Shown here piece by piece: positions 6,197 through 33,130 of a DNA stretch of 35,692 nucleotides (within the stretch, counting starts at the first letter, position 1; each line of letters opens with the position of its first letter). The position numbers and the translations under genes were made by a program. The notes under the pieces were generated by a model. The model did not search any database. It saw only the letters and a program-made list of their open reading frames with translations, and had not been told where the DNA came from. Source of the DNA: a virus; the IMG/VR virus record IMGVR_UViG_3300027816_000239, positions 1-35,692 of that record. One strand, 5' to 3'.

Positions 6197-6223
6197 AGGA
6201 TCTAATACCAAGAGGATATAGTT

Positions 6224-9937: not shown

Positions 9938-9938
9938 C

Positions 9939-10939: not shown

Positions 10940-10948
10940 GAGACTACC

Positions 10949-12794: not shown

Positions 12795-12818
12795 CAAAGT
12801 ACAGTTTTTAGATACAAT
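12791..12818 (+). promoter_or_regulatory. Strong sigma-70 promoter inside the replication operon
   Basis: A perfect TTGACA (12791-12796) and TACAAT (12813-12818), 16 bases apart, about 27 bases before the next start codon. The -35 box contains the stop codon of the helicase gene. It would separately boost the downstream genes, including the putative ssDNA-binding protein, which is needed in large amounts. Confidence 0.8.
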
Positions 12819-12844
12819 AGTAAAAAACAACCAAGAGGACATAT

Positions 12845-13234
12845 ATGGATAAAGCCATAGATAAAATCGTCGCCGTTTACATCAAAATTCGTAACGCTAA
12901 AGAAGATTTAACACGCGAGTACGATGGTAAAATTGCGACCCTTGATGAACAGATGCGAACTCTGAAAGAAGAGTTGCTAAAGATATCTAAAGAAACCGGC
13001 GTCACAAGTTTTAAAACCGAGAATGGCACAGCCTACCGAACAATTAAGAATCGGTACTGGACTAATGATTGGGAAAGTTTCTACGGCTTCATGCGTGAAC
13101 ATGGTGCTATGGAGTTGTTGGAAAAGCGCATACATCAAACAAATATGCGTGAGTTTTTAGAGGATCGACCCGATGTGCATCCACCGGGATTAAATGTGGA
13201 TCAAGAGTACGAAATCACCATTAGGAGAAAATAA
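12845..13234 (+). CDS. Hypothetical protein partnered with the ssDNA-binding protein (129 aa)
   Basis: The first gene after the strong promoter, with AAGAGGA upstream of the ATG. Residues 1-55 form a coiled coil (KEDLTREYDGKIATLDEQMR), followed by a beta-rich segment with TENGTAYRTIKNRYW and a C-terminal half with KRIHQTNMREFLEDRPDVHPPG. I remember similar sequences next to phage ssDNA-binding proteins but know no function. Its stop overlaps the next start (TAATG). A role in binding or loading the ssDNA-binding protein is inference. Confidence 0.78.
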   Translation: MDKAIDKIVAVYIKIRNAKEDLTREYDGKIATLDEQMRTLKEELLKISKETGVTSFKTENGTAYRTIKNRYWTNDWESFYGFMREHGAMELLEKRIHQTNMREFLEDRPDVHPPGLNVDQEYEITIRRK

Positions 13235-14100: not shown

Positions 14101-14102
14101 GC

Positions 14103-14357
14103 ATGGCAGAAACACGCGGCTACTCGTTTCGGCTAATAGAAACTAACAAACGCGCAATCGCAACCCACCCCGGTGTCATGCTGGGGAGGTTGTGTATTGC
14201 TCAAGATATCCCAGTCTCGGACGCAGCACAGTTCTTCGGCGTAAGCCGTATGACCGTATACAAGTGGTTTAAGGGTCAAGAAATGCCTCGCAAAAAACAG
14301 ATTGAGAAGATTGAGGAAGTCATTGCGAAACTTAAAACTAAAGTCCACTTGGATTAG
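14103..14357 (+). CDS. Helix-turn-helix (XRE-like) protein (84 aa)
   Basis: A clear helix-turn-helix with the order GVMLGRLCIAQDIPVSDAAQ, FFGVSRMTVYKWFKG. The second part is the recognition helix. The C-terminus is a Lys/Glu-rich helix. It may be a transcription regulator or, given its place directly before the primase-helicase, an origin- or replication-linked DNA-binding protein. It begins two bases after the previous stop, with only a weak ribosome-binding site, suggesting coupled translation. Confidence 0.82.
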   Translation: MAETRGYSFRLIETNKRAIATHPGVMLGRLCIAQDIPVSDAAQFFGVSRMTVYKWFKGQEMPRKKQIEKIEEVIAKLKTKVHLD

Positions 14358-14359
14358 GA

Positions 14360-17239: not shown

Positions 17240-17426
17240 TGGGGTCAACTACGAGGTCGATTGGACTAAGTTTAGGGTAGGCAGATCCTTCTTTGTGCCC
17301 TGCCTAGATGTAGAGGAAGCCCGAGCCGTTGTAAAAAACACTATGGACAGACTGGGATTTGAGGTCAAAGTAAAGTTAGTAGTGGAGGACGGGTTCCGTG
17401 GCTTGCGTATTTGGAGAATTGGGTAG
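17229..17426 (+). CDS. Hypothetical small protein, last of the rightward arm (65 aa)
   Basis: ATG 17229 overlaps the primase-helicase stop by 11 bases. The 65 residues look like a compact alpha/beta fold: a beta hairpin (NGVNYEVDWTKFRVGRSFFVP), a helix (VEEARAVVKNTMDRLG) and a final beta pair. This pattern is common in small phage proteins. No family is recognised. The hairpin cluster and terminator follow it. Confidence 0.7.
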   Translation: MQVNGVNYEVDWTKFRVGRSFFVPCLDVEEARAVVKNTMDRLGFEVKVKLVVEDGFRGLRIWRIG

Positions 17427-17437
17427 TACACTTCGAC

Positions 17438-17501
17438 CTGACAGTGCCTCCTCGCTGTCGGTGCCTATGGCACTCCTCTTGGTGGTTGAACTCCTTCAAC
17501 C
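17438..17501. repeat. Three consecutive inverted repeats in the convergent gap
   Basis: Three small hairpins lie back to back: CTGACAG/CTGTCGG (17438-17461, 7 pairs with one G-T), GTGCC-TAT-GGCAC (17461-17473) and GGTTGAA-CTCC-TTCAACC (17484-17501). None has a T-run on either strand. They may block read-through or protect 3' ends of the converging transcripts. Confidence 0.6.
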
Positions 17502-17505
17502 TTGC

Positions 17506-17533
17506 ACCCCCGCCCAGCGCGGGGGTCTTTTTT
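17506..17533 (+). terminator. Rho-independent terminator of the rightward arm
   Basis: Stem ACCCCCGC with GCGGGGGT (17506-17526), eight pairs, loop CCAGC, then C and six T (17528-17533). The T-run reaches the stop codon of the leftward giant gene (17532-17534). On the minus strand no T-run follows, so leftward termination here is not evident. Confidence 0.88.
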
Positions 17534-20500
17534 ACTCTCTGCCGTATTCCAACATTGGGGAAACCCGTGGGCGTAGTTTCTTCTGAATCTGCGCACCAAA
17601 CACTTCGGCTTCCATTTGGTTCTGTCCCCGACGCTTGAAAGAGTCGATTACATCTTTTGGTTCAACTGCGTACTCTGGGTACTTTTGATTAAACTTTTGG
17701 ATGTTTTCAATGGTGTCTGCATAAGCATCGGTATTGCCGCGCTCCATCCATAGTCTATTCATTAGGGTATTACGCTTGTCAATTACTTTTTGCTCGTAGG
17801 TCTTAGCCTCAATGGCTGCTTTCTGTTTTTGAGCAAGGCGCTCAGGCTGCAGTCCAATTGATTGTATTGCAAGTTCCCAAGCCGAAAAGTTATCTACTAG
17901 CGTAATTCCAGATCTAGTTTTAGCCCCCTCATCAGCCATGCGATAGGCAGCAGCAGGTTTAGACACAATTGCCGGAGCGGCTTTCTCAAAGGCACGTTGG
18001 TATTGTCCTTGCTCCATTAATTCGATAGCCTCGGCCCAATTTACCCCTAACCCAACTACAGGGCCAGCATTGGCAATTACACTCTCCACCACATTCTCTC
18101 GGGTATCGGTAGAGAACCGAGGATCACGCAACCATAAATTTACGGGGTCAAGGCTGACACGCTCACTCAGTGAGCCACCAGTTGCAACTGAAGCCGGGCC
18201 ACGGACAACTGCCTCCATAGTTCCACGGCCAGCCTTACGGGCAGTATCTTCACCCATGCCCATCTTCTTGTATATGTCGGCTACATAACCACCAAGTTCG
18301 ACTTCCATGTAGTTCTTAAACCAGTTATCCCAGTCAAAGAACTCATCGTCGTCATCATTTGCCGCTAATTTAACTATGTTACCAATTAACAAAGTAAAAA
18401 ACGGTAAAGCCTCTGCACCGCCAAGCAAGAATGTCACACCTAAAATACCAGCCAACCGACGACGCCCTTCTTTGTAAGTCTCTCGGCGCTGAGCATCGGC
18501 TTCGGCAATCCGCTGGTCTATGATGTTCTGCGGAATCTTGTCTTCGATCATCTGCCGCCGAAACTCTTTTATCTCAGCTTTACGGAATGGGGCGGCAAGA
18601 GTAAAGTAAAAGTTACGGGCTACGACGTAAGTAGCTAACACAGAGTATTGTTTAAATTTAGTCAACACCGAAAGCAGCGGGGGCGTAAAGTACCGTGGCT
18701 TCATCTGACGAGTAAAGTCACCCAAAGACAGGCCAGCAATATCTTTAGCTTCCGTAATTGCTAACTCAAAGGCTTCGTCTGGTGTATTTGGTATTGGGTT
18801 ACCTGCATTATCACGCTGGATAACGCCACGTAAATTTTTCTTAGGTTCATTTAAGAACTTGTCGTAGGCTAACTCAAACACAGACAGTAGCGTTACTTCG
18901 CGGTTTAGCCTTTCAGACTGATGAAACAATGCAGCAATAGTCCGTTTTACTGTGTTGTACCGCCCTGTATAAAGCTCTGATGGTCGACCACCAATGTCCA
19001 TAATGTCATTGGTCTGCGAGATATTGATATCGTTATCTTCAATAAATCGGTCTGCCGCTCGTTGCATCAATGGGTCTAAGTTGCCGCCTTCTACAATCGA
19101 CGGGAACTCCATCTGCATAATTTGTCCTTTAAACGCCGGACTAATTGTACGTTTCGGCATTGTGGCTGTGTACCGACCAAGATTTTTAAGCATTACAGCA
19201 TTTGCTTTAGCATATCCATATCGGCCACCAATATAAGGCATTGTGATCGCAGCCATACCTAAAAGGTTTAGCATAGCCGAGAACGGCGCAGACAGCATAA
19301 AATAAAACGTAGCATCTGATAGTTTGCCTGCTACTACCGCAGACATGCTGGTATCTTCGTTGCTTAGAATTGTCGGCGTGCGCTTCTCTACTTCCTTGAT
19401 GTAATCGTCGTAGACATCCGAGTTAGGTAAATTTTTGACGTATTCCTTGGCATTAATTAAGTTATTAATAAATCTTTCTGAATATTTAAACCGCGACTGT
19501 TGATAAGCAGTATGTACAGCCGTAGTAGCAAAAACACGGATCATATCTTCACTAGCACCTTGAATTGACTGCCGGTTGATAAACATTTTCCGAACACTTT
19601 GCTGGGGGAGCAAAATATAAATTAACTGATTAAGACTTTCTTTAAGTTCTTTCTTTGTATTTTCTACAGCAAATACTTTTTCTACTTCTTCTTGGGTTGG
19701 GATTTGGCCCATTTGTTTAGTTAGAGCTTTTTCAATTTCTTGATACTCTTTTTGAGTAGGTTTAGTTATGGCGCCTACAGAGTCTATAATATCTTGAACG
19801 TCTTTAAGAACTTGAGTCGAACTAGCATTTTGATTGTATAGCTCTGAGATGCCGTTACCTTTGCGCATGGTTTCGGCTAAGTTTTGCTGCTGTGCGTTGC
19901 CATTTGATAGCTGTCTTTTACGCTTACGAAACGCTAACTCTCTACCCAATACAGTTTCAAACTCATAGAACTCTTTAAAGTTGCCTTTGCCGACTTGGAA
20001 CCAATAGTTACCAAAACGACGTAGGGGGAAGTAAGGTGCGACTAACTTATCACGACCAAACTTATCATTGATTTCTTTAATAACCTTTTGACGCTCGGCT
20101 TTGGGCAACTGCAACGCACGCTTCTTCATCTCCGAAACCATTGTATTAATGGAGTCGGCGTAAAAATCTCTTACACGGCGATAAATAGTTTTAAACTCAG
20201 GATTTAGTCCATCCCAAGCTGCTTGCATTGCTGGGTTTAAAGAACCTGCTTGTGCTGTATCTGGATCAATCCCTCGGATAGTAGACTCCAACATAATTCG
20301 ACCCATGAGCCGAGACTGTTTCGGATAACGTGCTTGCAAGCGAGTCCATTCGGCTAAAATGTCTTTAGCCTTGGTCATTGTGCGGTTCCGATCAGCAATC
20401 ATCTGCTCAATAATTCGGATAGCACCGCTAATCTGAGGGAACTTAGTCTTGGTTAGGTCATCAATTTGACGTAAGTTAGAAAAACCAAGAATAGACCGAC

Positions 20501-23500
20501 GGAATATAGTATTGCCTGCATCCCACATTGGCGCAAGAATATCAGAACGTAATTTATCCCATGTTTCGTGCCCTTTAATAGCACTTTCAATTTCACCAAC
20601 AAGTTTTACTGCGACTTGTTCTGCAGAACGCCATGTTGTTGAAATTGGCCCCTGAATACGTTTACCTTTTGGGGCGAATCGAGCACCTGCCGCTGTGGGG
20701 GTACGGGTGCGCACTGCCGAGAACAACTGTGTAGCCGTAGCCATAGCGTTACTAGCAAGGTTATCTATGCCAACCATTTGATAAATTGCACGGACTAGGC
20801 GTGTAAAGAACGGCATCTTAGCCGGTTTGTACATCATCTTTCTAAGTCGGTCTTGGAATGACTTATTAGTAAAGACCTCAGATACAAACTCGTGGATATC
20901 AGTTAGACCATACAAGTCCAGCGGAATATTAGCAACTGCATACTCATACATCTTTTGGAGTTCTTCACGAGCAGCACGCTGCCCTTCCGTAAGCGTATTG
21001 GGGTCGGCGTTAAGGATAGCCTCAGTAGCCGCGTGCAGTACTTCGTGTAAGAAGACGTCGTTTGTAGAGTTATCAAGGTCTATCGTAATAGCATCGAATG
21101 CCGGGTAGTAAGCACCGGCAACCTCCAACCCACGGATGTTGTCTTCAAAGGCTTTGTTAACATCGGTAAATTCTGCAATTACCGGCTGCATGTTATAGCG
21201 AGGAGAGCGTAGTTCTTTTATACCTCTATAGACTTTTTCAAGGTTTTCATCCCGGTCATAGTTTTCAAAATATTTGTTATACAAATCCGGGTAGGTAAGC
21301 TGAACGTAATTAAACATTCGCTTCTGTTGATGATGTGTTTTTAAGTCAATCTGGCGACGGGTTAAGTCTCGAGCGCTGTTGAAGCTAATCGTAGTTGGTA
21401 GGTCTAACGCTGCTAGTTTTGCGGCTAGTTCTTTGTATAGCGGATTAGTAAGCCGAGTTGAGAGTACCTCAAGAGCACGCTTTAAATTGCCTTTGGCTAT
21501 CTCATCGGCAACTGCAGGGGCAATATTTCGGGGCTTAGCAAGTCGATTTATTACTTGGTCTTCGATGCTTCCCGGCGTAGTTTGCCCAGAAAATCTGGCA
21601 CGCTCGCGCTCTTCTGCAAGGTATTCAGGGCTAAGTTCAACTCCTCCAGATACTCCGGGTTCGCCTGCTGCTGTTCCCCCAAATCTCTCCACGCTGTCAG
21701 CACGGCGTTCATTTCTCCTTTGGTAGGAGCCAGAATCTTGGAAGCGTTTTCCACGAGGTTTAGCGTTTGCATCTGTATTTACCTTTCGAATAAATTCAAA
21801 AATATTTTTATTATCACGTAAAATTTTAAATACACGACGTTTAATATCACTTATTGTAGTGTCGCCAAATTCAAGTTCTTGACCTTCCATCCTATACGTA
21901 ATTCGCTGCATCTCAGCAGGGAAATCGGCGTTGTGGCTACGCACTTTATGATGAGCAAGTTCATGGATCATTGTCCCCACTAACCCAGCAGCGGCATCAC
22001 CCATTTTTTCTGCTTCGGTTACAGCCGGATTTATATACGAACCGTTAAAAGGCAATCGAATGCTTACGCCTCGATACTCTGTGTCAAAACTTATGCCAAT
22101 AGCCTCGTTGCGAAGGTCATCGTACCCCATAAGGTCGGCAACATAAGATCTAAGTTTTTGGAACTCATCACCGATTTCGTATATGAACTTGTCAAAACGT
22201 TGACCAAATTTGTCTCGGGCCATTTCAACTAAAGATGAACCCTTAACATTTGTTATCTTACGTTCAATTTCAACTTTTTTAGATTCCCATTCAGTATCGG
22301 TAAGTTTATTGTCATACCAATCAGACCTAGCATCTTCCAGTTCTTTTTTAAGTTTCTTAATTTCTTCTTGATCTGGAAGTTCGACGTTATCGTGCAACAT
22401 AACACGTTTAGCATCAACGTTGGCTTGATCAATCTTAAACTCATCAAGGTTAATTCTAGAATTCTTAAGGTCATCTTGAGACAGTTCAGGGATAACCCGA
22501 CCTTTAACAATTAAGCGGCCTTCTTTAACCTCAATGACATCGCCTTCAGAGATGTCAGAAGCAACTTTTACAATCCCAGCATCGCCTTTAGGAGCAAGTT
22601 CTTCTGGTGCAGTTGCTTTAATAGTTCCTCTGTCGTCATACAGATACTGTATTGACCCAAAGTTTTTAGCGTCATTCCCTAAATCAACAGCCCCATAAAC
22701 TAAGTTTAAATAACTAGTTAACTGCTCAAACCCTTTTTCCGTCGTTGGCGAAAACCGTTGCCGATTTAAATCAAACGGATAATTAGAATCTTCTGGCTTT
22801 ACATTTTTATTAGGTGATACGTCAAGATAAAAATTTCTTGGCACTATTTTAGCATCGAAGCCCGTACCTACTGCAATCTTCCCATCAAACTGCCACAATC
22901 CATTAGAGAGTATGTGCAGGTTATCGCTGTACATATACCGTTGAGGGTTTTTCTGAACATAAATTCGTGCAGTACCCCAATCAAACTTAACGTCAGCAAA
23001 TTGAGTGTAGCTGTCATACGGAAATTGATCCCCTATGCGAACAGTATCACCGTTAAAAGAAACAGAAATATCTGCAAATAACGGGCTTTTTTCTAAAACT
23101 GCGTATCCAAACTCGCTATCGGGGATTTTGATAGCAACGTCTTCCCCAGTAGAAGAATCCTTGTACGACTCTGGTACAACAACTTCGGCAAAAGTGCCGT
23201 GCCCATCCGGAAACATTTGAAGGTATTGAGGGGGTATCTGATCGCCTTTGTACACCCGAACATCAGGCGCAAGGTTAGGATCATCCATCGCCTCTTCAAG
23301 TTCTGACCCCGTACTTTCCAAAACACTTAGCACACCATCACGGTACGTAACTACTTTAATACGCTCGTTATTAAACAAAAACTGCATCTTGGCAATACCC
23401 AAACCGCCAGAATCTCGAGTACCTTCTTTTTTAGTACCAGCAATAGTTAAGAATGTAGTCGATAGCGTCTCGGGAGACATACCAGTGCCGTTATCTAATA

Positions 23501-25748
23501 CAGAAATAATCCGTGAACCCGCGTCAACTTTTATGTCTATAACGCCCTTAACTAATTGCCCTTTTTCTTGCATCGGCTTAATGGCGTCAAACGAGTTCTG
23601 CACCATCTCTTTAACCGAAACCTTTGGCATTTCTTTGGGTTCGCCATATAGTTTGGGGCCAAGAAGTTTTGACAAGCGACGTACATTTGCACCCGGCTTT
23701 GCCTTAATAGTTTCCCCAGACGGGCGCAGGTCAGCGGGCTTTGAAGTAGCCGCTAGTTCATCAAGTAGGGCTTCGCCTTCAGGTGACAATGAGTTATTTG
23801 ATAAGGCTAGACCAGAATCCCTAAGTGCCTTTAAGGCTTGAAATTTAACCGCACCGACCTTGCCAGCACGCAGTTTGGTAGCCGCATCTAAAAACTGTGC
23901 GTCATTCATTCCTCTTGGCAACGCAGTTGGTGCAACTTCTGAAGGTGGCGTTGGGGTTGTGACTGCTTCGAGTTGTTTTGGGTAACGTATCAATCCTTGA
24001 TAAGACAACCCCATATCTGCACGTTCTTTAGACTCAGGGGTAGGCTCAAAGCCAAGGCGCTCATAAAAATTAATGAGGTCTTTTTGTTTGTTCGGTTTAT
24101 CTGCTGCTGCTGTTAACTGTAACGTGGCGTTATTTTGATCTGCCCAATCTGTAAGTGCTTGCCCAAATTGAGTTCCTTGACCTTTACCAGAAGTTTTTGC
24201 CTTTACCCCGGTTACTTTCCAAACATTAGGTTCACGTTGGGTATCGCGAGTAAGTTGCGCACTAGCCCCAAACCCTTCTGCTTTTACAGTTTCAACAGGT
24301 AAGTTTGCATATTCTGGAAGGGGTGCAACAGGAGTAAATGTTAGTTCTTGAGTGGGTTTAGTCTTACCTTCTTCGGCTAATGGACTTGGCTTAGCCGTTG
24401 CTCCAACTCCAACCCCACCAGTAGGAACCCCAGAAACCTCCACTCCTCCGGCTCCAGTTTCAGTAGGCTGCTCGGTAATTCCTGCTCCGACACCTGTTTC
24501 GTCAGGTACCTGAAGGCTAGGCTCAATTCTTCCGGCGGCATCCGCTGTAGCAACTCCTCCTGCCAGTTCTCGTTCTCCATAAGCCTTCACCAATTGGTCG
24601 AGTTCTTCATTAGTGGCGTCACGCCCGTACATCTGCTTAAAGCCGGTGGCAAATGCTGTCCTAACTTCAGGGGTAGTTGCTACGGGTTCCGCAGCGGTTT
24701 CACTTGCCGAAAGGGCATCGAGTCCAGCTATAAGTCGTTCTTCGGGAGTTTGTAGCCCAGCAAATTTTTCAGCACCTTTTTGCATGGCTTTACCAACGAT
24801 GACATTACCGCCAGTGCCAACAACAGTTGCAATAAAAGTTTGCGCTGCAGCAGAAGGGCGGTCTGCTAAATAACTAGAGAACGGTTTTTCAGGGTTTAAT
24901 ACAGCCCATTCATTTAAGTCTTGCAGTATGGTCGCAAGTTGCTCTCCGGGTATTTCTTTCTTTAACTGATTAAGCAGCATCCGACCAAAGCCGGTCTTTT
25001 GATTAATGTCGTTAAGTAGACTGCCAAGAGGCATTTTTTCAGTAGCAACCTCAATAACACCTTGGGATGCAGCGAAAGGTAATGCTTGCTCAGGTCTTAG
25101 ACCTTTTTCTCTAGCCTCTTGATATGCCTGACCACCAGTCATTCCACCAAATGCCGTAAGTACAGCAGCCTGACCGCCGGGAAGCATTGCAGCAGGCAAA
25201 AGAGCTAAATTTCGCCCAAAACTTTCAAGGCCGGATTCGACACCACTAAGTATTAGTCCTTGGTCGGCAGGGGGTTTTATTTTTTCACTTTCTGCTAACT
25301 GACCAAGTTCGGCCATATTTTGGGCAAAAGCTGCAGCGGGATCTTGTTTCCCAATAGTGCCAGTTAATGCTTGATAAAAACGCCCAGCAGGTGTTTCTTG
25401 ATACGCCTTGCTGCCAAATTCACCGATGCTACGAAACACGCCAGCAGCATCGCTGCTCATACCTCTTGGCACATTACGGGCTACACGCCCTAAAAAGTCA
25501 GTAATTGAGTTTTCTGATGTTGTGGGGGGAGGCGCAACCTCTTCAGGAGTAGCCGGGGCTACTGGTGCTTCTTCTACCTTTGGCGCAGGCGCAGTCGGCG
25601 CAGCGGGGGCAACACCCAACCCGATACGGCCTGCAAAATCCTCAAACGGTAAATCAGAGTAAAACTTTTTATGGAATCCCGCTGCTAAGTCTTGGTCTGA
25701 TAAATCATTGTATTGAGGGTATTGTTTGCGAAGTTCTTGAATATTCAT
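17532..25748 (-). CDS. Giant polyvalent virion protein: GNAT-like, GHKL ATPase, two zincin motifs, membrane segments (2738 aa)
   Basis: Domains in order: an N-terminal NIQELRKQYPQYNDLSDQDL motif seen at the front of large phage virion proteins; a Pro/Ala linker; a Gly/Ala hydrophobic stretch (about 179-206); a GNAT acetyltransferase-like domain (about 490-590, GKGQG at 521-525 and FYERLGF); an Hsp90-type GHKL ATPase (about 690-900, N718 and D721 in the N-box, DNGTGM 752-757, GGLGIAKM 781-788); a coiled coil; zincin 1, HELAHH 1262-1267; zincin 2, HEVLH 1568-1572; helical regions resembling large polyvalent-protein domains; and hydrophobic segments near 2146-2172, 2354-2386 and 2430-2462. Such proteins are thought to be packaged and injected. 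Start overlaps the upstream stop (TAATG). One unbroken frame, no frameshift seen. Confidence 0.9.
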   Translation of the reverse strand: MNIQELRKQYPQYNDLSDQDLAAGFHKKFYSDLPFEDFAGRIGLGVAPAAPTAPAPKVEEAPVAPATPEEVAPPPTTSENSITDFLGRVARNVPRGMSSDAAGVFRSIGEFGSKAYQETPAGRFYQALTGTIGKQDPAAAFAQNMAELGQLAESEKIKPPADQGLILSGVESGLESFGRNLALLPAAMLPGGQAAVLTAFGGMTGGQAYQEAREKGLRPEQALPFAASQGVIEVATEKMPLGSLLNDINQKTGFGRMLLNQLKKEIPGEQLATILQDLNEWAVLNPEKPFSSYLADRPSAAAQTFIATVVGTGGNVIVGKAMQKGAEKFAGLQTPEERLIAGLDALSASETAAEPVATTPEVRTAFATGFKQMYGRDATNEELDQLVKAYGERELAGGVATADAAGRIEPSLQVPDETGVGAGITEQPTETGAGGVEVSGVPTGGVGVGATAKPSPLAEEGKTKPTQELTFTPVAPLPEYANLPVETVKAEGFGASAQLTRDTQREPNVWKVTGVKAKTSGKGQGTQFGQALTDWADQNNATLQLTAAADKPNKQKDLINFYERLGFEPTPESKERADMGLSYQGLIRYPKQLEAVTTPTPPSEVAPTALPRGMNDAQFLDAATKLRAGKVGAVKFQALKALRDSGLALSNNSLSPEGEALLDELAATSKPADLRPSGETIKAKPGANVRRLSKLLGPKLYGEPKEMPKVSVKEMVQNSFDAIKPMQEKGQLVKGVIDIKVDAGSRIISVLDNGTGMSPETLSTTFLTIAGTKKEGTRDSGGLGIAKMQFLFNNERIKVVTYRDGVLSVLESTGSELEEAMDDPNLAPDVRVYKGDQIPPQYLQMFPDGHGTFAEVVVPESYKDSSTGEDVAIKIPDSEFGYAVLEKSPLFADISVSFNGDTVRIGDQFPYDSYTQFADVKFDWGTARIYVQKNPQRYMYSDNLHILSNGLWQFDGKIAVGTGFDAKIVPRNFYLDVSPNKNVKPEDSNYPFDLNRQRFSPTTEKGFEQLTSYLNLVYGAVDLGNDAKNFGSIQYLYDDRGTIKATAPEELAPKGDAGIVKVASDISEGDVIEVKEGRLIVKGRVIPELSQDDLKNSRINLDEFKIDQANVDAKRVMLHDNVELPDQEEIKKLKKELEDARSDWYDNKLTDTEWESKKVEIERKITNVKGSSLVEMARDKFGQRFDKFIYEIGDEFQKLRSYVADLMGYDDLRNEAIGISFDTEYRGVSIRLPFNGSYINPAVTEAEKMGDAAAGLVGTMIHELAHHKVRSHNADFPAEMQRITYRMEGQELEFGDTTISDIKRRVFKILRDNKNIFEFIRKVNTDANAKPRGKRFQDSGSYQRRNERRADSVERFGGTAAGEPGVSGGVELSPEYLAEERERARFSGQTTPGSIEDQVINRLAKPRNIAPAVADEIAKGNLKRALEVLSTRLTNPLYKELAAKLAALDLPTTISFNSARDLTRRQIDLKTHHQQKRMFNYVQLTYPDLYNKYFENYDRDENLEKVYRGIKELRSPRYNMQPVIAEFTDVNKAFEDNIRGLEVAGAYYPAFDAITIDLDNSTNDVFLHEVLHAATEAILNADPNTLTEGQRAAREELQKMYEYAVANIPLDLYGLTDIHEFVSEVFTNKSFQDRLRKMMYKPAKMPFFTRLVRAIYQMVGIDNLASNAMATATQLFSAVRTRTPTAAGARFAPKGKRIQGPISTTWRSAEQVAVKLVGEIESAIKGHETWDKLRSDILAPMWDAGNTIFRRSILGFSNLRQIDDLTKTKFPQISGAIRIIEQMIADRNRTMTKAKDILAEWTRLQARYPKQSRLMGRIMLESTIRGIDPDTAQAGSLNPAMQAAWDGLNPEFKTIYRRVRDFYADSINTMVSEMKKRALQLPKAERQKVIKEINDKFGRDKLVAPYFPLRRFGNYWFQVGKGNFKEFYEFETVLGRELAFRKRKRQLSNGNAQQQNLAETMRKGNGISELYNQNASSTQVLKDVQDIIDSVGAITKPTQKEYQEIEKALTKQMGQIPTQEEVEKVFAVENTKKELKESLNQLIYILLPQQSVRKMFINRQSIQGASEDMIRVFATTAVHTAYQQSRFKYSERFINNLINAKEYVKNLPNSDVYDDYIKEVEKRTPTILSNEDTSMSAVVAGKLSDATFYFMLSAPFSAMLNLLGMAAITMPYIGGRYGYAKANAVMLKNLGRYTATMPKRTISPAFKGQIMQMEFPSIVEGGNLDPLMQRAADRFIEDNDINISQTNDIMDIGGRPSELYTGRYNTVKRTIAALFHQSERLNREVTLLSVFELAYDKFLNEPKKNLRGVIQRDNAGNPIPNTPDEAFELAITEAKDIAGLSLGDFTRQMKPRYFTPPLLSVLTKFKQYSVLATYVVARNFYFTLAAPFRKAEIKEFRRQMIEDKIPQNIIDQRIAEADAQRRETYKEGRRRLAGILGVTFLLGGAEALPFFTLLIGNIVKLAANDDDDEFFDWDNWFKNYMEVELGGYVADIYKKMGMGEDTARKAGRGTMEAVVRGPASVATGGSLSERVSLDPVNLWLRDPRFSTDTRENVVESVIANAGPVVGLGVNWAEAIELMEQGQYQRAFEKAAPAIVSKPAAAYRMADEGAKTRSGITLVDNFSAWELAIQSIGLQPERLAQKQKAAIEAKTYEQKVIDKRNTLMNRLWMERGNTDAYADTIENIQKFNQKYPEYAVEPKDVIDSFKRRGQNQMEAEVFGAQIQKKLRPRVSPMLEYGRE

Positions 25749-27202
25749 TAACGAATGCCAAGGGGGTCATTAGACGAAGTAGGTGATTTAACAGGTTGCA
25801 TCCTACCACTACTTAAATCAACACCTTGTACTTTGTATAACTTAAATGTTTCTTCTTCTAATTTATCTTTAATTGCGTTAATCCTATCCTGCGCTGCTTT
25901 GTCACCACCCGCAGCCTTCCGCATATCTGCTTGTAACTTAGGATCAAATGAAAGTAACTGTAAAAATTCAGCTTTGGCATCTTTTGCCGCCGACGATACC
26001 GCAGTTCGAGTAGCGTTGTAAGTATCTTTTGGAGCAAGTGCCTGTGCAGCTTGAGAAACTGAGTCTAAGTACGACAATTTAGGATCATTCTTACGTAATT
26101 GTGCTGCTGCTTGAAGGGTTTTATCAGGAATGTTAGCAATTGCTAGGCGGTTTTCCCTATCCAAACGAGCAGTTTCTTCACGGCTTGCTCGGTCTAAAGC
26201 GCTTTCTTCGCCGCGAGCTTCTCGCTCTCTTTCTGACATTGCTATTCTTTCAGCCGATGAAATCGCGTCAAGTTTTTCTTTACGTGCAGCCTCTTCAAGT
26301 TGCAATTTAAGTTGCATATCAGCCATTGTCTGTTTACGGCGCTCCTTAATATCTTCAGCAAAACCTTTAACTGCGGCTTGGGAGCCTTTGCCAATATTAG
26401 TTAAAGCATAGGGGGACTCACCACCAAGAATGCCTAGACCTGCCTCTAGTGCACGAGTCCAAGCATCTGTCCGCACATCGGTATTTTTACGGGCTTGATT
26501 TGCAAGGTACTCTTTAATTGCTTCTCGCTCTGGGGGCGCTGGCGCTTCTCTTTCTCTAAGTACATTTCCACTAGTGAAAATATCTTCGACTGTTCTTGCT
26601 TTAAAAGGAATCCTTTGAGCAGGCATAGTAGCGCCTAAGCCAAACGCACTAGGATTAAACCCCGCTCCTTCGTTGTCAATTCGTTGTTGTGTTGCTCGAG
26701 AAAATCCTAAATCGTATCCGGGTCTTTCATAGTCTTCATCATTTGAAAGAGAATAATTTTTGGAACGGTCACGCTCTAAAGCCCTTAAATATTCTTCGTC
26801 ATTTAAATCTCCACCTGCCTGAAACGCAATAATTCCGCCACCTGCATACTCGTTGCCGTACATCTCTTCGGGTACAGGTAATGAGGCAACTCCCGTGTCC
26901 ATAGGCGGCATTTCTTGTTGCGGTGCCATAGCCATCATCTGTGGCTGCGCTTGGGGCGCTTCGGCTTGGGCATTAATTGCCATGTTTCTTTCAGTTACCG
27001 AGGCTGGCATGGGTTGTTGCATGGCCTGCATATTGGCAGCAGCCTGTGCCATTTCGGCTTTTTCATTCAGGATAATTGGTAGCATGTCAGCCGGTATACG
27101 ACCTTGCTGTGCCATAGCCATAAGTTGCTGCTGTGGCAATTGTGCTAGAGCATTGATTGGCCCTTCTTGGAGTTTAAGGGCTTGAGTTATTCCCATTGCC
27201 AT
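25748..27202 (-). CDS. Gln/Met/Ala-rich probable virion protein (484 aa)
   Basis: The N-terminal 120 residues are rich in Gln, Met, Ala and Pro. A YAGGGIIAFQAGG segment near residue 115 is of a kind I recall in podovirus-type structural or ejection proteins. The middle is a long helical, coiled-coil region rich in Arg, Glu and Ala (EEAARKEKLDAISSAERIAM). No enzyme motif is present. Its stop overlaps the giant gene start, suggesting the two are made together, perhaps as an internal virion or injection complex (inference). Confidence 0.72.
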   Translation of the reverse strand: MAMGITQALKLQEGPINALAQLPQQQLMAMAQQGRIPADMLPIILNEKAEMAQAAANMQAMQQPMPASVTERNMAINAQAEAPQAQPQMMAMAPQQEMPPMDTGVASLPVPEEMYGNEYAGGGIIAFQAGGDLNDEEYLRALERDRSKNYSLSNDEDYERPGYDLGFSRATQQRIDNEGAGFNPSAFGLGATMPAQRIPFKARTVEDIFTSGNVLREREAPAPPEREAIKEYLANQARKNTDVRTDAWTRALEAGLGILGGESPYALTNIGKGSQAAVKGFAEDIKERRKQTMADMQLKLQLEEAARKEKLDAISSAERIAMSEREREARGEESALDRASREETARLDRENRLAIANIPDKTLQAAAQLRKNDPKLSYLDSVSQAAQALAPKDTYNATRTAVSSAAKDAKAEFLQLLSFDPKLQADMRKAAGGDKAAQDRINAIKDKLEEETFKLYKVQGVDLSSGRMQPVKSPTSSNDPLGIR

Positions 27203-28143
27203 TATGATTTACCCATTAAGTTATACAGACTTAGACCAGATAACCCAAGGCCAGCCAACTGGCTTGCAAATGAGGGCGGTGGCGTAACTGTCTGTGTTGT
27301 GGTGTCGGTGAGCGGAATACCACGGATAAAGCCACTAAGTTTATCAAGTTGCTGCTCAGGATACTGAATACGCTGCAATAAGTTCTGGTAGTCAATATCT
27401 GTTTTTTGTTGCGCTACTGCACGCTCATAGTCACCATAAGCGCCAAGAGTTTTAAGACGGTCAATGTCTGCGGCTTGTTGCGCTACACCCAACTGACCAA
27501 ATTGTGAACCTAATGTGCCGTAGGTTTGAGCCTGTTGCAGACGAGCCGCACGCTCTGATTCCAGCCCCTTTTGCCCAGCCTCATAGGCAGCCTGAAGTCC
27601 CTTGGCTTGGATGTCACCGAGTTGGTTCTGGAGGTTGCGCTCACGTTCTGTGGTGGCAAGCAGTTGCCGTGCTCCGCCATAAGTACCTTGACGGGCTGCT
27701 CCTAAGTTAGTGGCTAACTGGGCTTTCTGGGCATCTGTTAGGGCTTGCTGTTTTTGAACGTCAATAACGCCCTGTGCATAGGGAGACATATACTGCTGCA
27801 TCACCCCTTGATCCAACATACTTGGAAGCCCGGTGGCGGCGGCATAGCCTGAGCCAAGAGCACCAGTCCCCATAGCGAACTGTCCGGGGGTCTGCATAGC
27901 AGAGAGTTGTGCGCCTACCTGTTGCTGACCGGGGGTTAAACCCGCTACCCGCTGTGCGCCACTATAAAGACCTGCGGCCTGTAATGGGCCTTGGATGTTG
28001 GCTTGGTAGTCGGCGGGGGTGCCTGCTCCGTAGAGTTTAAAGGCCGTTGGGATTAACCCGGGAACGCCTTGGGCACCGGTTTTATAAAACTCTTCAAACG
28101 CGGTAGGTAGTTGACTGGTTACGACTTGTGAGGTGGTTGCCAT
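27202..28143 (-). CDS. Gln/Ala/Gly-rich probable virion protein (313 aa)
   Basis: This protein has a repeated Gln-Ala-Gly pattern and the segment YMSPYAQGVIDVQKQQAL, followed by ARQGTYGGARQ and QGKGLQAAYEAGQ-like stretches (DIQAKGLQAAYEAGQKG). I recognise this order from uncharacterised structural proteins of aquatic podoviruses. It is largely helical with a hydrophobic C-terminus (ASQLAGLGLSGLSLYNLMG). It shares a stop/start base with the downstream gene. Probably an internal virion or tail component; not enzymatic. Confidence 0.72.
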   Translation of the reverse strand: MATTSQVVTSQLPTAFEEFYKTGAQGVPGLIPTAFKLYGAGTPADYQANIQGPLQAAGLYSGAQRVAGLTPGQQQVGAQLSAMQTPGQFAMGTGALGSGYAAATGLPSMLDQGVMQQYMSPYAQGVIDVQKQQALTDAQKAQLATNLGAARQGTYGGARQLLATTERERNLQNQLGDIQAKGLQAAYEAGQKGLESERAARLQQAQTYGTLGSQFGQLGVAQQAADIDRLKTLGAYGDYERAVAQQKTDIDYQNLLQRIQYPEQQLDKLSGFIRGIPLTDTTTQTVTPPPSFASQLAGLGLSGLSLYNLMGKS

Positions 28144-28153: not shown

Positions 28154-29830
28154 TTAAGCAGGCATCAAGCGACGAGTATTGACTTCAGGCGCCTGACGGG
28201 TTTTGCCTGTGCGTGATTTACGAATTCGATCCATCATTGCGTATAACTTTTTAGCCCCAGCATTAGAGGAGCCATTACCAAGGTGGGATACCACGTCAGC
28301 AGGGACTACAAACTCGCCATCAGCCAGACGGGCTTCTTGTTTGCCCTCAATATTAGCCTTAATAGAGTCGCTCATCCCGTCGCCCCCACCACGGAGATAT
28401 CGGGGAGGCAAACCGCCTTTGGCTAGGGAAGCAATGCCACCCTGCATCATATTGTCATCGCCACCGATTTCGTCGTCGTAAGAGTCGATCCGACCACCCA
28501 TAGCCATGCCACGCTCACGGCGAATATCTTCTTCAGTTAAGCGCTGGTAGTTATAGGGATAGTCACGAAGAACGCTCTGGGCAAACTCAATTTCTTCTTT
28601 TGTACGGTTTTCCCGATCAGCCAAAATGCGGTCAGCCTCGGCTTTCTGGTCATCAAGTTCTTGTTTAGTTTTATACGCACCATAAATGGTTGTACCAAGA
28701 GAAGTAATCCCCGCAGCATCTTTAATATCCTGTCTATCGGGGAGGTAATCTTTTACCACGTCATAGGCATCTTTAACCGGTTCAGGAATAATATTGCTAA
28801 TGCCTTGTTTTACATCGCTATAACCTTGTTTTAAAGTGTTAATCCCTTTTTGGAATGCATTTGGATCAGCGCTTGCTTCACTAATATCACTAGCAGCGCG
28901 ACCATAATCAAACGTAGGTACTTCCCCAACATCAGCATAAGAAGCAGGTTGACCCATCATATTGTCAAAATATTGTTCACTGTAAGTAGGTAAACGCTCA
29001 GGGGTGGCTGGCGTAGAGGGAATAGAAACCGGAGAGGCATCTGAAAATGGCACATCAGCACTTGCCAATTGCCCTAATGGTTCTCCAATCCCGCTACCGG
29101 GATAACGAATTGCTTGTGGCCCTGCGCTTGCCACTGCACTCTCTAAGGATCCAATTTCGCCCGGTATATTTGCGCTACCAGCAGCATCCATAGTTCCGCC
29201 TATAGACTCAAGTACAGACGGTGCCGACTCAGCAACACTTGAAAAACCTTCTACAGGAACTTGTTGCATCCCACTACCAAAAAGATCAGTTATTGAGCCT
29301 CTTGGCGTTAAGACATTTGAATCTGGAGCAGACAGGGCATTAAAAGCAGCGGTAGTAGCACCTGCCCTAATTGCACTTTTTGTATCAAAACTACTCCCCG
29401 GAGTTGCAACACCTTGATATATAGCCGAACCAATCGGGCCGCCATAGTAGGCAGCGGCAATTGAAGCAATCGGGCCAAGAATTTTATCTTTTGCTATGGA
29501 CTCAACGCCACGCTCAACTTCTTTACCGATAGAAGAACCTAGGTTGTATACATCTTTAAGTATGGGTGTGCTTTTAAAAAACTTCCTAATTGACTTATAT
29601 TCGGGTAAACCCGTATAAGGATTGATTGTCCCTGATCCACCCATAAGTTTGAGAATGCCAGCCTCTTCGGGGGATATGTGGGCAAGGACTGTATCGCCTT
29701 CCCGACCCTGTCGCCGGATCATCTCAGCAGCGTTCTCTAGGCCGTAGGTATCCTTAACCCGACCACCCCCTTCAAAGGCAGGCATGGGAGGGGCGTATGC
29801 GTATTGGGGGGTAGCAGGGGCTGAGTACAT
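28154..29830 (-). CDS. Glycine-rich probable virion protein (558 aa)
   Basis: The N-terminal region contains FEGGGRVKD and DTVLAHISPEEAGILKLMGG; the middle has an alanine/glycine membrane-like stretch (ILGPIASIAAAYYGGPIGSA); the C-terminal end has GGLPPRYLRGGGDGMSDSI and LADGEFVVPADVVSHLGNG, a motif I recall at the ends of several phage structural proteins. Probably a virion-associated protein, possibly delivered with the giant protein. AGGAT precedes the ATG. Ten bases separate it from the 313-residue gene downstream. No catalytic motif seen. Confidence 0.72.
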   Translation of the reverse strand: MYSAPATPQYAYAPPMPAFEGGGRVKDTYGLENAAEMIRRQGREGDTVLAHISPEEAGILKLMGGSGTINPYTGLPEYKSIRKFFKSTPILKDVYNLGSSIGKEVERGVESIAKDKILGPIASIAAAYYGGPIGSAIYQGVATPGSSFDTKSAIRAGATTAAFNALSAPDSNVLTPRGSITDLFGSGMQQVPVEGFSSVAESAPSVLESIGGTMDAAGSANIPGEIGSLESAVASAGPQAIRYPGSGIGEPLGQLASADVPFSDASPVSIPSTPATPERLPTYSEQYFDNMMGQPASYADVGEVPTFDYGRAASDISEASADPNAFQKGINTLKQGYSDVKQGISNIIPEPVKDAYDVVKDYLPDRQDIKDAAGITSLGTTIYGAYKTKQELDDQKAEADRILADRENRTKEEIEFAQSVLRDYPYNYQRLTEEDIRRERGMAMGGRIDSYDDEIGGDDNMMQGGIASLAKGGLPPRYLRGGGDGMSDSIKANIEGKQEARLADGEFVVPADVVSHLGNGSSNAGAKKLYAMMDRIRKSRTGKTRQAPEVNTRRLMPA

Positions 29831-29861: not shown

Positions 29862-31277
29862 TCACTGGGTTAAGTCATAGAAGGTAATACAGCCAACCCC
29901 ATCGCCGGTTGTAGCGCCAGCAATCGTTCGGACGCCCAAAGTATAGATGTCGCTAACGTTCGTCAGGGATACACCAAGTTGCTGATCCCAGTTAAACCCG
30001 GTAGGAGCCGTCGTGTCTGCTTGGCCTCCGCCACCCGAACTGGCAACGTAACCGGTCTGAACAATTGTGCCTGCCGTGGCAATCGCCGTAGCCGCAACAT
30101 CAAACTCAACGTTGGCATCAGAAGGAACAGTTGCCGCCCAAGTGGCTCCCGTAAGGACGGGGTTTTTAATCAGCGCAATCTCGTAGTCTTGCAGCGTGGT
30201 CGGCTGAAACTGTATACGGTTTGGAAGCACCACCGCGCCCAGAGCCGTCGAAGCCAGCCGGATCGAGACAACTGGGAGGAAGTTGGCCGCCGTGTTTATG
30301 GTGCCAAGCACCGTTGTCCGCCTTGCAACGTGCTCAATTGATGTGGCCTCAAAGCCTCCTTCGGATATTACCGACGAGCAAATCTGCGTGAGCGTAGCGG
30401 CAACTGCTGCCGTTGTAGTAGTGATTTCGTAGCGAATAGGCAATATAGCAGTGGTCATGTAGACCGTCGTGCCGAAGACGTTGGCGGTATTAAATGTATG
30501 ACAAAGGACGTATTGCCCATTAATAATGAAGCCGCACCGGACTGAACCGACACCAAGCCACTCAAAGTCCATCCACAAGATCTGTGGGTGGGTCAGGTCA
30601 AGCGTGTATCCAGAGGTGCCAGTACCGTCTAGTTTGTCGCCATTCCAGTCTGCTTGATTAACAAATCGTGCATCACTTGGCGTGCCAGAAGTGTTTGAAC
30701 GCAATACGAGCGCATTAACCCCTCCGGTACGACGGAAGAACAGCCCGTTTTGGGTATTAAAGTACCCAACACTTTGATTAAGGTTGGCAGAAGTGCCGTT
30801 GTCCATCTGAAAGGTTGCTAGAACCAACAGGCTTTTCCCCGGCTGATACAGCATATTGCGAAAGGACTGACGTACCACAGACCCAACGCCACCACCCGTC
30901 ACAGCCAGACTAACGCTGGACTGATTGGTATTAAATGTCGATGTCCCAGTACCAGATGTAGAAGTGCTAAATTGATTGTCAGCAGCGTAACGGCTTTGGC
31001 TGTCAAATAGGCTGTAGGGTTCGCTCACACGCAAACGCCCAAAAGCATCTACGTTAGTGCCGCCTATCGAAATTGGTAATGGGGTCATATTTCCCTCGCA
31101 AGCCGTTCCATTTAGTATGCCTGCTACGGCATTTTGAAAGTTGTCAATCTGGTTGAAGTACAGCCGCAAAACCCTAATAAGGTCTGTTGCATACTTTTGG
31201 TCGTACTCAACAGGCGGCACCGGTAGGGCAGGTGCAACGAAGGTCTTTTGAATATCATTATCAACACAGATGGTCAT
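29862..31277 (-). CDS. Probable tail or receptor-binding structural protein (471 aa)
   Basis: The protein is rich in Thr, Ser, Gly and Asn with mostly beta-strand character. It contains NVDAFGRLRVSEPYSLFDSQ, a motif I recall in phage structural proteins of unknown detail, then a jelly-roll-like or lectin-like region (LTHPQILWMDFEWLGVGSVR). No catalytic residues are recognised. The start overlaps the previous stop by four bases. A tail fibre, decoration or receptor-binding role is inferred from composition and from position beside the stabilisation protein. Confidence 0.72.
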   Translation of the reverse strand: MTICVDNDIQKTFVAPALPVPPVEYDQKYATDLIRVLRLYFNQIDNFQNAVAGILNGTACEGNMTPLPISIGGTNVDAFGRLRVSEPYSLFDSQSRYAADNQFSTSTSGTGTSTFNTNQSSVSLAVTGGGVGSVVRQSFRNMLYQPGKSLLVLATFQMDNGTSANLNQSVGYFNTQNGLFFRRTGGVNALVLRSNTSGTPSDARFVNQADWNGDKLDGTGTSGYTLDLTHPQILWMDFEWLGVGSVRCGFIINGQYVLCHTFNTANVFGTTVYMTTAILPIRYEITTTTAAVAATLTQICSSVISEGGFEATSIEHVARRTTVLGTINTAANFLPVVSIRLASTALGAVVLPNRIQFQPTTLQDYEIALIKNPVLTGATWAATVPSDANVEFDVAATAIATAGTIVQTGYVASSGGGGQADTTAPTGFNWDQQLGVSLTNVSDIYTLGVRTIAGATTGDGVGCITFYDLTQ

Positions 31278-33130
31278 CGTTTACCGTCCGGTCTACCATC
31301 AAGTCTTGGCGTACCTAACTGCCACTGCACATTTAAGTCTTCGGATTGAATCTTAAACCCCATCTGACGGGCACGGGCACGGATAAATACCTGATCGGTG
31401 TACTGCTCAATCGGCACCGTGGTAGATCGGGTAACTGATGGGTTATTGGTTGTTTTGTAGTTTGACCCCGGGAAGTTCCGTGGCCTCATCGTCATGTACA
31501 CGAGAGGGCTTGTTGCCGTAGACCCCTCAAAGTTAATATCAGGGATGATCCTTTTGATAAGTATGAATTGATCGCCATCTACTAAATCAATGTCGTTGGT
31601 CTGCACATAGGATGTCATTGGCAAGGTATCGTCGTTCGTGCCCTGCTCATGGTTATAGACGTAGTTCCCACCAACCGCCTGCGGATACTGACGTAGAGGC
31701 GTGTCAAGCCAAGCCGTGCGATTAATAGAGCCGTAGTACCAAATACGCTCCATGTAGTTATAGATCACGTAACTATCATTTACACCGGAGTTCTGGCTTG
31801 GGTAGAACCACCAAATCTCATGCCAGCCTTCGTTCGTGCCACATACAACCTGAGCCGCTTGGTTGTAGTTAAAGTTGTTAAATACAAAGTTCCGCAGGGT
31901 GCAAGGCAGTGTCTCGACTCGGCCTGAGTAGGCATAGAACTTATCCTGTCCCATCCAGTAAGTCACGTTGTTAGCCGTAATGCAAGCCCTTGGGGACATG
32001 ATTGAGGTGTTGTCAGCCAACTCCTGCAACGCAAACACATCTGTTGTACCTGTAAATTGGAACGAATACAGGTGTGAGTCAGTAAATACTAACGTCTCCT
32101 GCCGGGTAGGTAGCGCCCTGATAATCCTTGATCCGCGAGATACTCGGATAAAACCTGCGGAATTTGTCGCGGCTGGCGCCCAGTTAACAGGATCATCCTG
32201 ATTAGCCCACCTAATAAGAAGGGGGTCAAAATCACCAGCGCTACTAGAACCGTAAGGCACGCAGCCAAAAGCGAGTAGATGCCTATCGTTTTGTGATACA
32301 AGAATTTGCATGGCTTCGACGGGGACACTGGCGGCTCCTGTTAAAGAGGAAAGAAGAACGGCGCGAGTATTAAATACCCCCGTGTACTCCCAGATGTAGA
32401 TTGGGCCGTTGCGGATATTGGCAATTAAGTCATTGTCAAAGTTATCCATAAACCAGTCACGCTGCTGGTCTACAACCGGCGTAAGCGCACCCTCACCCCA
32501 TGTTAAACGGCCCCAAGCACCAGCACCCCAGCCGTATCCATAGGCGATATACGGGTTGCCGATATTGATCTGAAAGACCGCCGTGATGGCTGTACCACCG
32601 CCGTTAGTTGTCGTGCTAGTTGCGGCTGTGGTCGTTTGGATGGTGAAGTTATTGCCGTCCACCACAGTTTGGATCTGAAACTCTGCGTTGAACTGAGCCT
32701 GCGGGATTCCGCCTATCGGGCCAACAACACCTGAAAAGGTCACGTAGGAGCCAGCCGTAGCGCCGTGGCTAGCAATATTGACGTTTACTATTCTTGACAG
32801 ATTGGTGGTGTCAAAGCAGTTGTCTGTAGCGGGGCTAACAAAGGTTGCCCGAATTGGGGTTATATCAATTAAGTTGCCACCCGTCTCAAGATATAACTTT
32901 TCATTAGTACCCAAGCCCATAAGGTTGTCGGACTCGGTGGTGATGTAGTTATACATCTGGCGGCATATACCAGCCAGCGTAAACAGGCTATAGCGTAACC
33001 AGCCGCCAATCTTTTGGGGGAACCCTGACCGGAAGCGAACCTTGTCGCACTCGTAAAACCCACCCTCACCAGAGTAGTTCGTCTGGTCTCGGTTTAGTCC
33101 GGGTTTAAATTGGAGTTTTGATAAGGCCAT
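31274..33130 (-). CDS. P22 gp10-like packaged-DNA stabilisation / tail nozzle protein (618 aa)
   Basis: The N-terminus LQFKPGLNRDQTNYSGEGGFYECDKVRFRSGFPQKIGGW is the signature of the phage stabilisation family, to which P22 gp10 belongs; these form the tail hub or nozzle that holds DNA after packaging. The remainder is beta-rich with many Trp, Tyr and Gly, as in beta-propeller nozzles. Length is near the family norm. Its start shares a base with the stop of the lysin gene (TAATG). This is the main evidence for a podovirus-like tail. Confidence 0.85.
   Translation of the reverse strand: MALSKLQFKPGLNRDQTNYSGEGGFYECDKVRFRSGFPQKIGGWLRYSLFTLAGICRQMYNYITTESDNLMGLGTNEKLYLETGGNLIDITPIRATFVSPATDNCFDTTNLSRIVNVNIASHGATAGSYVTFSGVVGPIGGIPQAQFNAEFQIQTVVDGNNFTIQTTTAATSTTTNGGGTAITAVFQINIGNPYIAYGYGWGAGAWGRLTWGEGALTPVVDQQRDWFMDNFDNDLIANIRNGPIYIWEYTGVFNTRAVLLSSLTGAASVPVEAMQILVSQNDRHLLAFGCVPYGSSSAGDFDPLLIRWANQDDPVNWAPAATNSAGFIRVSRGSRIIRALPTRQETLVFTDSHLYSFQFTGTTDVFALQELADNTSIMSPRACITANNVTYWMGQDKFYAYSGRVETLPCTLRNFVFNNFNYNQAAQVVCGTNEGWHEIWWFYPSQNSGVNDSYVIYNYMERIWYYGSINRTAWLDTPLRQYPQAVGGNYVYNHEQGTNDDTLPMTSYVQTNDIDLVDGDQFILIKRIIPDINFEGSTATSPLVYMTMRPRNFPGSNYKTTNNPSVTRSTTVPIEQYTDQVFIRARARQMGFKIQSEDLNVQWQLGTPRLDGRPDGKR

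Follow-up and report, generated by a model that had tools for sequence, protein, structure and literature searches.

A giant ejection-type polyvalent phage protein with a predicted GHKL ATPase-zincin module

The P0001 locus

The stretch of DNA analysed here (the window) covers positions 1 to 35,692 of the virus record IMGVR_UViG_3300027816_000239 from IMG/VR, 35,692 nucleotides in all. The gene of interest is P0001, whose product had been described from the letters alone as a single virion protein combining a GNAT-like acetyltransferase, an Hsp90-type ATPase and two zincin motifs (the original prediction). Translation and a motif script confirmed the single 2738-residue open reading frame (ORF), which overlaps the preceding gene, its ATG with the stop codon there, and placed all seven motifs at the residues given for them: GKGQG 521, YERLGF 562, N718, DNGTGM 752, GGLGIAKM 781, HELAHH 1262, and HEVLH 1568. 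HExxH occurs in P0001 only twice, at 1262 and 1568, whereas 0.007 occurrences are expected by chance given 16 histidines in 2738 residues; two HExxH were seen in 0/20000 composition shuffles, and DNGxGM in 0.1% of them. A PHROGs search linked P0001 to giant phage proteins of unknown function, and Rfam and tRNA scans of the whole window gave no match. Our best reading is that P0001 is a polyvalent ejection protein of the type of PhiM1 gp48 and the N4 virion RNA polymerase (vRNAP), with a GHKL-zincin cargo that we have not found described; that it is a virion protein at all is suggested by its gene context and homology. The features central to this reading are as follows.

17532..25748, minus strand: giant ejection-type polyvalent protein P0001, 2738 amino acids (translation and motif check)
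23109..23681, minus strand: GHKL ATPase domain, residues 690-880, with N-box E714/N718, DNGTGM 752, and GGLGIAKM 781 (Pfam, profile, fold)
22449..23108, minus strand: transducer (S5-like) region, residues 881-1100, with invariant R996 (fold match over ATPase and transducer)
21759..22211, minus strand: zincin 1, residues 1180-1330, HELAHHxxxxH, presumed ligands H1262, H1266, and H1272 and presumed base E1263 (conservation, profile)

The GHKL-transducer-zincin 1 module

Family, profile, and fold searches agree on an Hsp90-type GHKL ATPase, as had been predicted. The Pfam family HATPase_c_3 matched P0001 with 35 bits (cut-off 25) and all 30 module-bearing members at E ≤ 0.1, and the profile of alignment A3 reached TRAP1/Hsp90 at 1.5e-10. 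A3 consists of 30 rows, the window and 29 of 32 references, after removal of the identical or near-copies L001, L013, and L047; alignment A6 holds 27 of the 30 rows. The predicted model of residues 660-1410, built from 30 sequences, has a mean predicted local distance difference test score (pLDDT) of 76.5 and a predicted template modelling score of 0.60. Its top Foldseek match is TRAP1 (4.8e-13), and its two best VIA-align matches, at Z 19-20, are topoisomerase (topo) VI-B (19.6) and Hsp90 (19.5), both spanning 297-299 residues over ATPase and transducer, followed by GyrB (18.3) and MORC3 (18.0). The presence in P0001 of a GHKL ATPase with its transducer, a Bergerat fold followed by an S5 domain, is solid as a prediction from sequence and model. 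Nine residues (E714, N718, D752, G754, G756, G781, G784, K787, and R996) are invariant in 30/30 rows, the conservation of E714 and N718 being partly built in because the patterns of the viral scan (A1) include the N-box. The equally constant R996 is a candidate for the basic residue of the S5 domain that reaches ATP.

Zincin 1 has the form HExxHxxxxxH and lies outside the viral scan pattern. H1262, E1263, and H1266 are invariant in 30/30 rows, and H1272 is histidine in 29/30 and glutamate in one, in a set with a mean column identity of 35% and a lowest identity to the window of 24%. The five best PDB rows of the zincin 1 profile are zincins (E 0.0036-0.024): snake-venom metzincins at 0.0036-0.0053, Wss1 at 0.0082, and proabylysin at 0.024. 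A WLM protease (0.096) and Spartan (1.2) were also reached, and designed helical proteins occur among the rows as well. At E ≤ 0.1, more members matched WLM (18/30) than any other zincin family, with YgjP at 16/30. Membership in both was rejected on Pfam scores, 17.9 bits for WLM/Wss1 and 14.6-17.3 bits for YgjP, in each case vs a cut-off of 26; a PHROGs search with 27 zincin 1 segments gave scattered weak matches, none of them for the window. Taken together, the matches support placing zincin 1 in the zincin superfamily at large, without assignment to a single family.

These searches bear on one alternative, a clamp of the kind known from MutL, gyrase B, topo VI-B, and MORC: dimers of the GHKL-transducer part would close around DNA, and zincin 1 would cleave proteins bound to it, such as defence or nucleoid proteins that the genome encounters on entry. 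Such an ATP-gated DNA clamp protease would fit the position of topo VI-B as the best VIA-align row, the reach of the zincin 1 profile to Wss1, WLM protease, and Spartan among other zincins, and the prevalence of WLM among family matches. However, topo VI-B is tied with Hsp90, the WLM score stays under the Pfam cut-off, and snake-venom metzincins slightly outscore Wss1. We regard the clamp as distinctly improbable.

Relatives were collected in several IMG/VR scans, the contigs of which overlap heavily. The whole protein as query gave 21 loci, seven of them sharing the N-terminus only; an alignment of residues 670-1400 gave 26 loci, a C-terminal alignment 44, the GNAT segment 3, and the N-terminal tag 62. 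A pattern scan of 84,980 species genomes produced 240 pattern matches and one confirmed relative, on a 6.4 kb contig of a metagenome-assembled genome (MAG). When hidden Markov models (HMMs) of the individual regions were run over the fetched loci, GHKL, transducer, and zincin 1 occurred together: after clustering at 95% identity, all three were complete in 30/30 GHKL giants, a set made up of 29 clusters on IMG/VR contigs and the single MAG relative. The C-terminal scan is the better test of unity, because other loci were partly found through the module itself. It contains 35 clusters, 30 of which have a complete 5' end; the module is whole in 16 of these, absent in 14, and partial in 0. Across the sampled sequences, ATPase, transducer, and zincin 1 are shown by this co-occurrence to behave as one all-or-none module. 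L047, one of the sequences dropped from A3, has, at 6089-20800, a 4904-residue open frame holding the module and a zincin 2-like region.

In public phage records, a lone rIIA ATPase was all that the module matched at the sensitivities used. Comparison of the whole protein with 50,697 phage records yielded 38 matches at E ≤ 1e-5, none of which falls in the GHKL-zincin region. At E ≤ 0.01, the module of L062 matched nothing in the phage records, and that of P0001 matched a single protein, the rIIA of a Vibrio phage, through its GHKL part (2e-3; HMM 9.5e-8). Among the best 50 rows in BFVD, 12 are named RIIA or RIIA-like, and the others include topoisomerases, Hsp90-type proteins, and many nameless entries. 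The top BFVD match, A0A516L4L2 (1.4e-52, 733 columns, 30% identity), is a viral model that matches nearly all 751 modelled residues, almost the entire module. Since rIIA is described, in passages of PMC7824862, as a GHKL domain with a variable C-terminus acting in counter-defence, the ATPase of P0001 might be a delivered rIIA cousin that senses or blocks a host defence and whose output is the zincin. Nevertheless, the matched Vibrio rIIA has no HExxH and gave no transducer or zincin 1 hit, and Hsp90 and topo VI-B also fit the model well, so that we consider an rIIA-like role very improbable.

The ejection scaffold, the N-terminal half, and the gene neighbourhood

Residues beyond the module form the C-terminal part of the chain.

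20709..21221, minus strand: zincin 2, residues 1510-1680, HEVLH 1568-1572 and a downstream EF(V/I) (match to PhiM1 gp48, 9sfn, 23sg)
20118..20498, minus strand: LPD39 domain, residues 1751-1877 (Pfam 56.3 bits, cut-off 27)
19245..19301, minus strand: hydrophobic segment, residues 2150-2168 (Kyte-Doolittle)
18372..18455, minus strand: hydrophobic segments, residues 2432-2459 (Kyte-Doolittle)
17574..18494, minus strand: C-terminal PLxRFG region (tail-700 domain), residues 2419-2725 (NCBIfam NF032893, 300 bits, cut-off 100)

Alignment A4 of this part has 36 rows, the window (residues 1502-2701) and 35 of 45 sequences, ten copies, near-copies, or fragments having been dropped. The HExxH of zincin 2 is kept in 23/23 rows that hold the region (at least 45% identity), while 13/36 rows have a gap there. 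In PDB, the profile of residues 1502-2701 matched PhiM1 gp48 (8vb2, 3.2e-9), an internal virion protein (9sfn, 1.9e-6), and gp10 (23sg, 2.6e-4); each aligns at its own HExxH, and the 8vb2 match extends over about 130 residues around zincin 2. The single HExxH of N4 gp50 (HELVH 2228) was aligned with HEVLH at 7.6 bits. Of the two zincin motifs originally predicted, both are conserved and yet they are not equivalent: zincin 1 forms a unit with the ATPase, whereas zincin 2 belongs to the scaffold and corresponds to a segment of solved ejection proteins. The predicted model of residues 1502-2701 (pLDDT 73.4) gave VIA-align matches to N4 vRNAP (Z 9.2) and, in register, to PhiM1 gp48 (8vb2, Z 8.5), with a T7 core protein (9jyy_I, 6.3) and the core protein of phage E1004 (5.7) lower down, values to be read with the caution that Z below 8, or below about 13 for helical folds, may reflect chance. 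The N4 structural hit was rejected as support for zincin 2 and dropped because it is out of register with the HExxH of N4. The membrane-like segments predicted near the C-terminus were recovered as two hydrophobic stretches, with peaks of 1.63-1.68 that barely exceed the Kyte-Doolittle threshold of 1.5.

An alternative use of the two peptidase motifs would be self-processing. Both zincins would then only divide the giant chain into working pieces, whether this happens inside the capsid or once the protein has entered the cell, while the ATPase would aid refolding after passage through the narrow tail. Self-processing has been proposed for polyvalent metallopeptidases in sections of PMC5512222, a paper in which zincins are the commonest domain, and the account of the PhiM1 ejectosome available from PMC11440229 has it traverse an aperture of about 30 Å, where refolding may be needed. 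Six of the module-less relatives (L056, L064, L074, L076, L084, and L085) also have a further HExxH of a different kind, which precedes the motif of zincin 2 by 338-401 residues, although L053 and L059 have no extra HExxH there. On the other hand, the inseparability of GHKL and zincin 1 in the sampled set exceeds the needs of simple processing, and cleavage of N4 vRNAP, which has an HExxH domain, is not reported in the portions consulted of the preprint PMC12633501. In our view, self-processing is rather unlikely. The alternative motifs in the six relatives look as if the slot takes alternative peptidases.

The enzyme-like domains might also be structural relics, kept for their shape or for zinc binding and not catalytic, and no enzyme activity is shown for ejection-linked zincins in the parts seen of PMC5512222, PMC12633501, and PMC11440229. 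Against this, the catalytic glutamate and histidines of zincin 1 persist in 30/30 rows down to 24% identity, and zincin 2 retains its HExxH throughout the rows that hold it; this is the least probable of the readings considered.

The N-terminal half of P0001 contains three further features.

25605..25748, minus strand: N-terminal tag of about 48 residues (RKQYPQYND...), shared by 61 ORFs
24777..25448, minus strand: segment 101-324, 48% identical to bbp10 of Bordetella phage BPP-1 (sequence match)
23949..24281, minus strand: GNAT-like cassette, residues 490-600, replaced in close relatives (sub-threshold Pfam GNAT)

In the fetched loci, 61 distinct ORFs carry the tag (RKQYPQYND..SD..LA..HKKFYSD) at their N-terminus or close to it, a number that includes fragments and near-copies. 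The tagged ORFs (the window; L015-L021, L099-L153) span 109 to more than 3378 amino acids and include LPD38 giants as well as members of families with the label virion structural or major head protein; a second, C-terminal copy is present in four of the ORFs. The tag is possibly a virion-docking signal, and a literature search for three forms of the motif did not find it. A second copy at the C-terminus of P0001 itself, at 0.3 bits only, is not claimed. In L004, the N-terminal 138 residues (7157-7570) are off-frame from the rest (7534-15228), through a frameshift or an assembly error. The gene bbp10 sits two genes from bbp12, the annotated internal virion protein of BPP-1.

The GNAT-like domain of the original prediction is present as motifs and as a 74% identical segment in L091, a divergent giant in which zincin 2 and the scaffold are found while the module gave no hit. 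GNAT family membership was rejected on Pfam curated cut-offs: the window scores 12.6-19.5 bits vs cut-offs of 20.7-27 (19.5/27, 17.9/23.6, 17/20.7), and L091 21.4 vs 23.6. The segment is a swap cassette and no fixed part of the protein. The slot holds other sequence in L003, L004, L006-L010, and L013, and L005 ends short of it. In L033, an ADP-ribosyltransferase (ART-PolyVal, 94 bits, residues 1291-1435) lies directly upstream of the GHKL-zincin module; this domain and LPD23 (L078) are the only Pfam matches at E ≤ 0.001 in the N-terminal parts of 15 relatives. The position thus appears to be a slot for exchangeable effectors.

Five genes precede P0001 on the same strand.

25748..27202, minus strand: 484 amino acids, conserved upstream neighbour in many relatives (synteny)
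27202..28143, minus strand: 313 amino acids, PHROG 4287 "DNA ejection protein" (PHROGs and synteny)
28154..29830, minus strand: 558 amino acids, same cassette (synteny)
29862..31277, minus strand: 471 amino acids, virion structural protein, PHROG 1645 (PHROGs)
31274..33130, minus strand: 618 amino acids, virion structural protein, PHROG 3287 (PHROGs)

In PHROGs, these neighbours comprise one DNA ejection family and two virion structural families, and in 22/30 module clusters the 313, 558, or 618 amino acid gene has a homologue upstream. Judged by annotation and synteny, P0001 is the last gene of a conserved virion/ejection cassette. Its product is probably the large ejection protein of a short-tailed phage known only from uncultured material; the short tail is only an expectation, because the portal and terminase scans gave no match over the cut-off. 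The portal family PF12236 was found in 0/7 related records, being also silent in every control genome, and the terminase family PF03237 in 1/7, below the cut-off (5.9e-4). Elsewhere in the window, positions 1409-4115 hold the gene of a P-loop ATPase, recognised by its GEPGVGKT motif, next to a gene for a DUF2201 metallopeptidase-VWA protein, a pair resembling the MoxR-vWA-metallopeptidase pair of jumbo phages in the account given in part of PMC7824862.

Interpretation and comparison with known systems

We favour, at a probability of about one half, an ejection scaffold that carries an ATP-gated protease as cargo, the peptidase activity, the ATP gating, and the location in the virion all being predicted. 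Self-processing ranks second, and the DNA-clamp and rIIA-like readings stand behind it. An injected polyvalent protein was part of the original prediction, and the polyvalent ejection type is borne out by LPD39, the NCBIfam PLxRFG region, the ejection cassette, and the similarity to PhiM1 gp48 at zincin 2. P0001 combines LPD39 and GHKL matches over their cut-offs, conserved zincin motifs, and a position among virion genes; the originally predicted modification, remodelling, and cleavage of host proteins would be a further step, which we infer.

In the proposed mechanism, the C-terminal 1200 or so residues (zincin 2, LPD39, helical hub, PLxRFG end, and hydrophobic stretches) would be a delivery scaffold lining or anchoring an envelope channel. 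The N-terminal half would be cargo, comprising the docking tag, an interchangeable effector (here GNAT-like), and the fixed GHKL-transducer-zincin module. The capsid and periplasm contain little or no ATP. We propose that, because ATP is scarce there, the GHKL clamp remains open before entry, with zincin 1 inactive. Once the N-terminal half reaches the cytoplasm, ATP would close GHKL dimers between neighbouring subunits and switch zincin 1 on, and the active peptidase might cut either a host target or linkers whose cleavage releases the cargo from the channel. Every step, from ejection and oligomer to ATP gating, proteolysis, and substrates, is conjectural.

Several observations weigh against the ATP-gated cargo protease. 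Firstly, the presence of the N-box in scan pattern A1 biases the conservation of E714/N718, and zincin 1 was included in the pattern of the genome-contig scan. Secondly, zincin 1 was folded only within the 660-1410 model, whose match list is filled by GHKL rows. Thirdly, the homology to ejection proteins lies mainly in the zincin 2 segment, because the 1502-2701 model had no Foldseek match in PDB at E ≤ 0.001 (best 0.34) and the 8vb2 alignment has a root-mean-square deviation of 19.4, while the N4 hit falls at 2375-2590 and not at HELVH 2228. Finally, the C-terminal scaffold, found in 22/30 module clusters, was not detectable in 8/30, and 8/30 have no upstream homologue of the 313, 558, or 618 amino acid gene, some of these clusters being cut by contig ends; four of those without a detected scaffold (L031, L032, L035, and L038) still have one of these genes upstream.

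A bolder version of the cargo protease, a delivered GHKL-zincin machine that is inert in the virion, armed by cytoplasmic ATP, and perhaps closes on DNA to strip or cut DNA-bound defence proteins, is unlikely. If true, it would be the first GHKL-driven metallopeptidase; we know of no previous one. Open-literature searches combining GHKL with metallopeptidase, zincin, phage, or ejection gave no GHKL-zincin fusion among the matches listed, and those on SprT/WLM and phage no phage GHKL fusion among theirs. Proteins ejected by a phage belong to the earliest viral products that host defences encounter, and for most of their cargo no function is known. Activation by cytoplasmic ATP could be studied concretely on a fixed ATPase-zincin pair such as this one.

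Of the separate parts of P0001, the GHKL and transducer fold with its ATP-site motifs is shared with Hsp90/TRAP1, MutL, topo VI-B, and MORC, none of which, to our knowledge, has a fused zincin. In Wss1/WLM, Spartan/SprT, and YgjP, the third histidine follows the second by six residues. These families resemble zincin 1 in HExxH plus third histidine and in weak profile matches, the zincin of P0001 being linked to a GHKL ATPase. The MORC paper PMC2292703, in the text available, contains no peptidase or protease term. T4-type rIIA, which acts in phage counter-defence, has its GHKL domain at the N-terminus, as described in passages of PMC7824862, but the rIIA examined is 753 amino acids long, lacks HExxH, and matches P0001 in the GHKL part only.

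As a whole chain, P0001 resembles the polyvalent proteins, giant multidomain phage chains with LPD39, zincins, and GNAT-like domains encoded beside virion genes; unlike P0001, these are described in the part seen of the main text of Iyer et al. 2017 (PMC5512222) without the terms GHKL, HSP90, or HATPase. N4 gp50 is likewise a giant ejected protein, in which domain C1, holding the HExxH, is followed by the large helical C2 (portions of the preprint PMC12633501), but it carries an RNA polymerase, and its structural match is out of register. PhiM1 gp48 (8vb2, a tetrameric ejection protein of the T7 gp16 type), 9sfn, and 23sg share with P0001 an HExxH segment, which in P0001 too may belong to a helical hub protein, although gp48 is 1263 amino acids long and is not among the best 60 of 166 matches to the GHKL-zincin profile. 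Residues 268-528 of gp48, inserted in the hub and called endolysin/exotransglycosidase-like in the section of PMC11440229 consulted, contain its HEAAH (385-389). The HExxH segments of N4 vRNAP, PhiM1 gp48, and P0001 are possibly one shared scaffold element, which would suggest re-reading the "endolysin-like" domain of gp48. P0001 is of an already known kind, the polyvalent ejection protein, and what we have not found described before is the pairing of GHKL ATPase and zincin as its predicted cargo.

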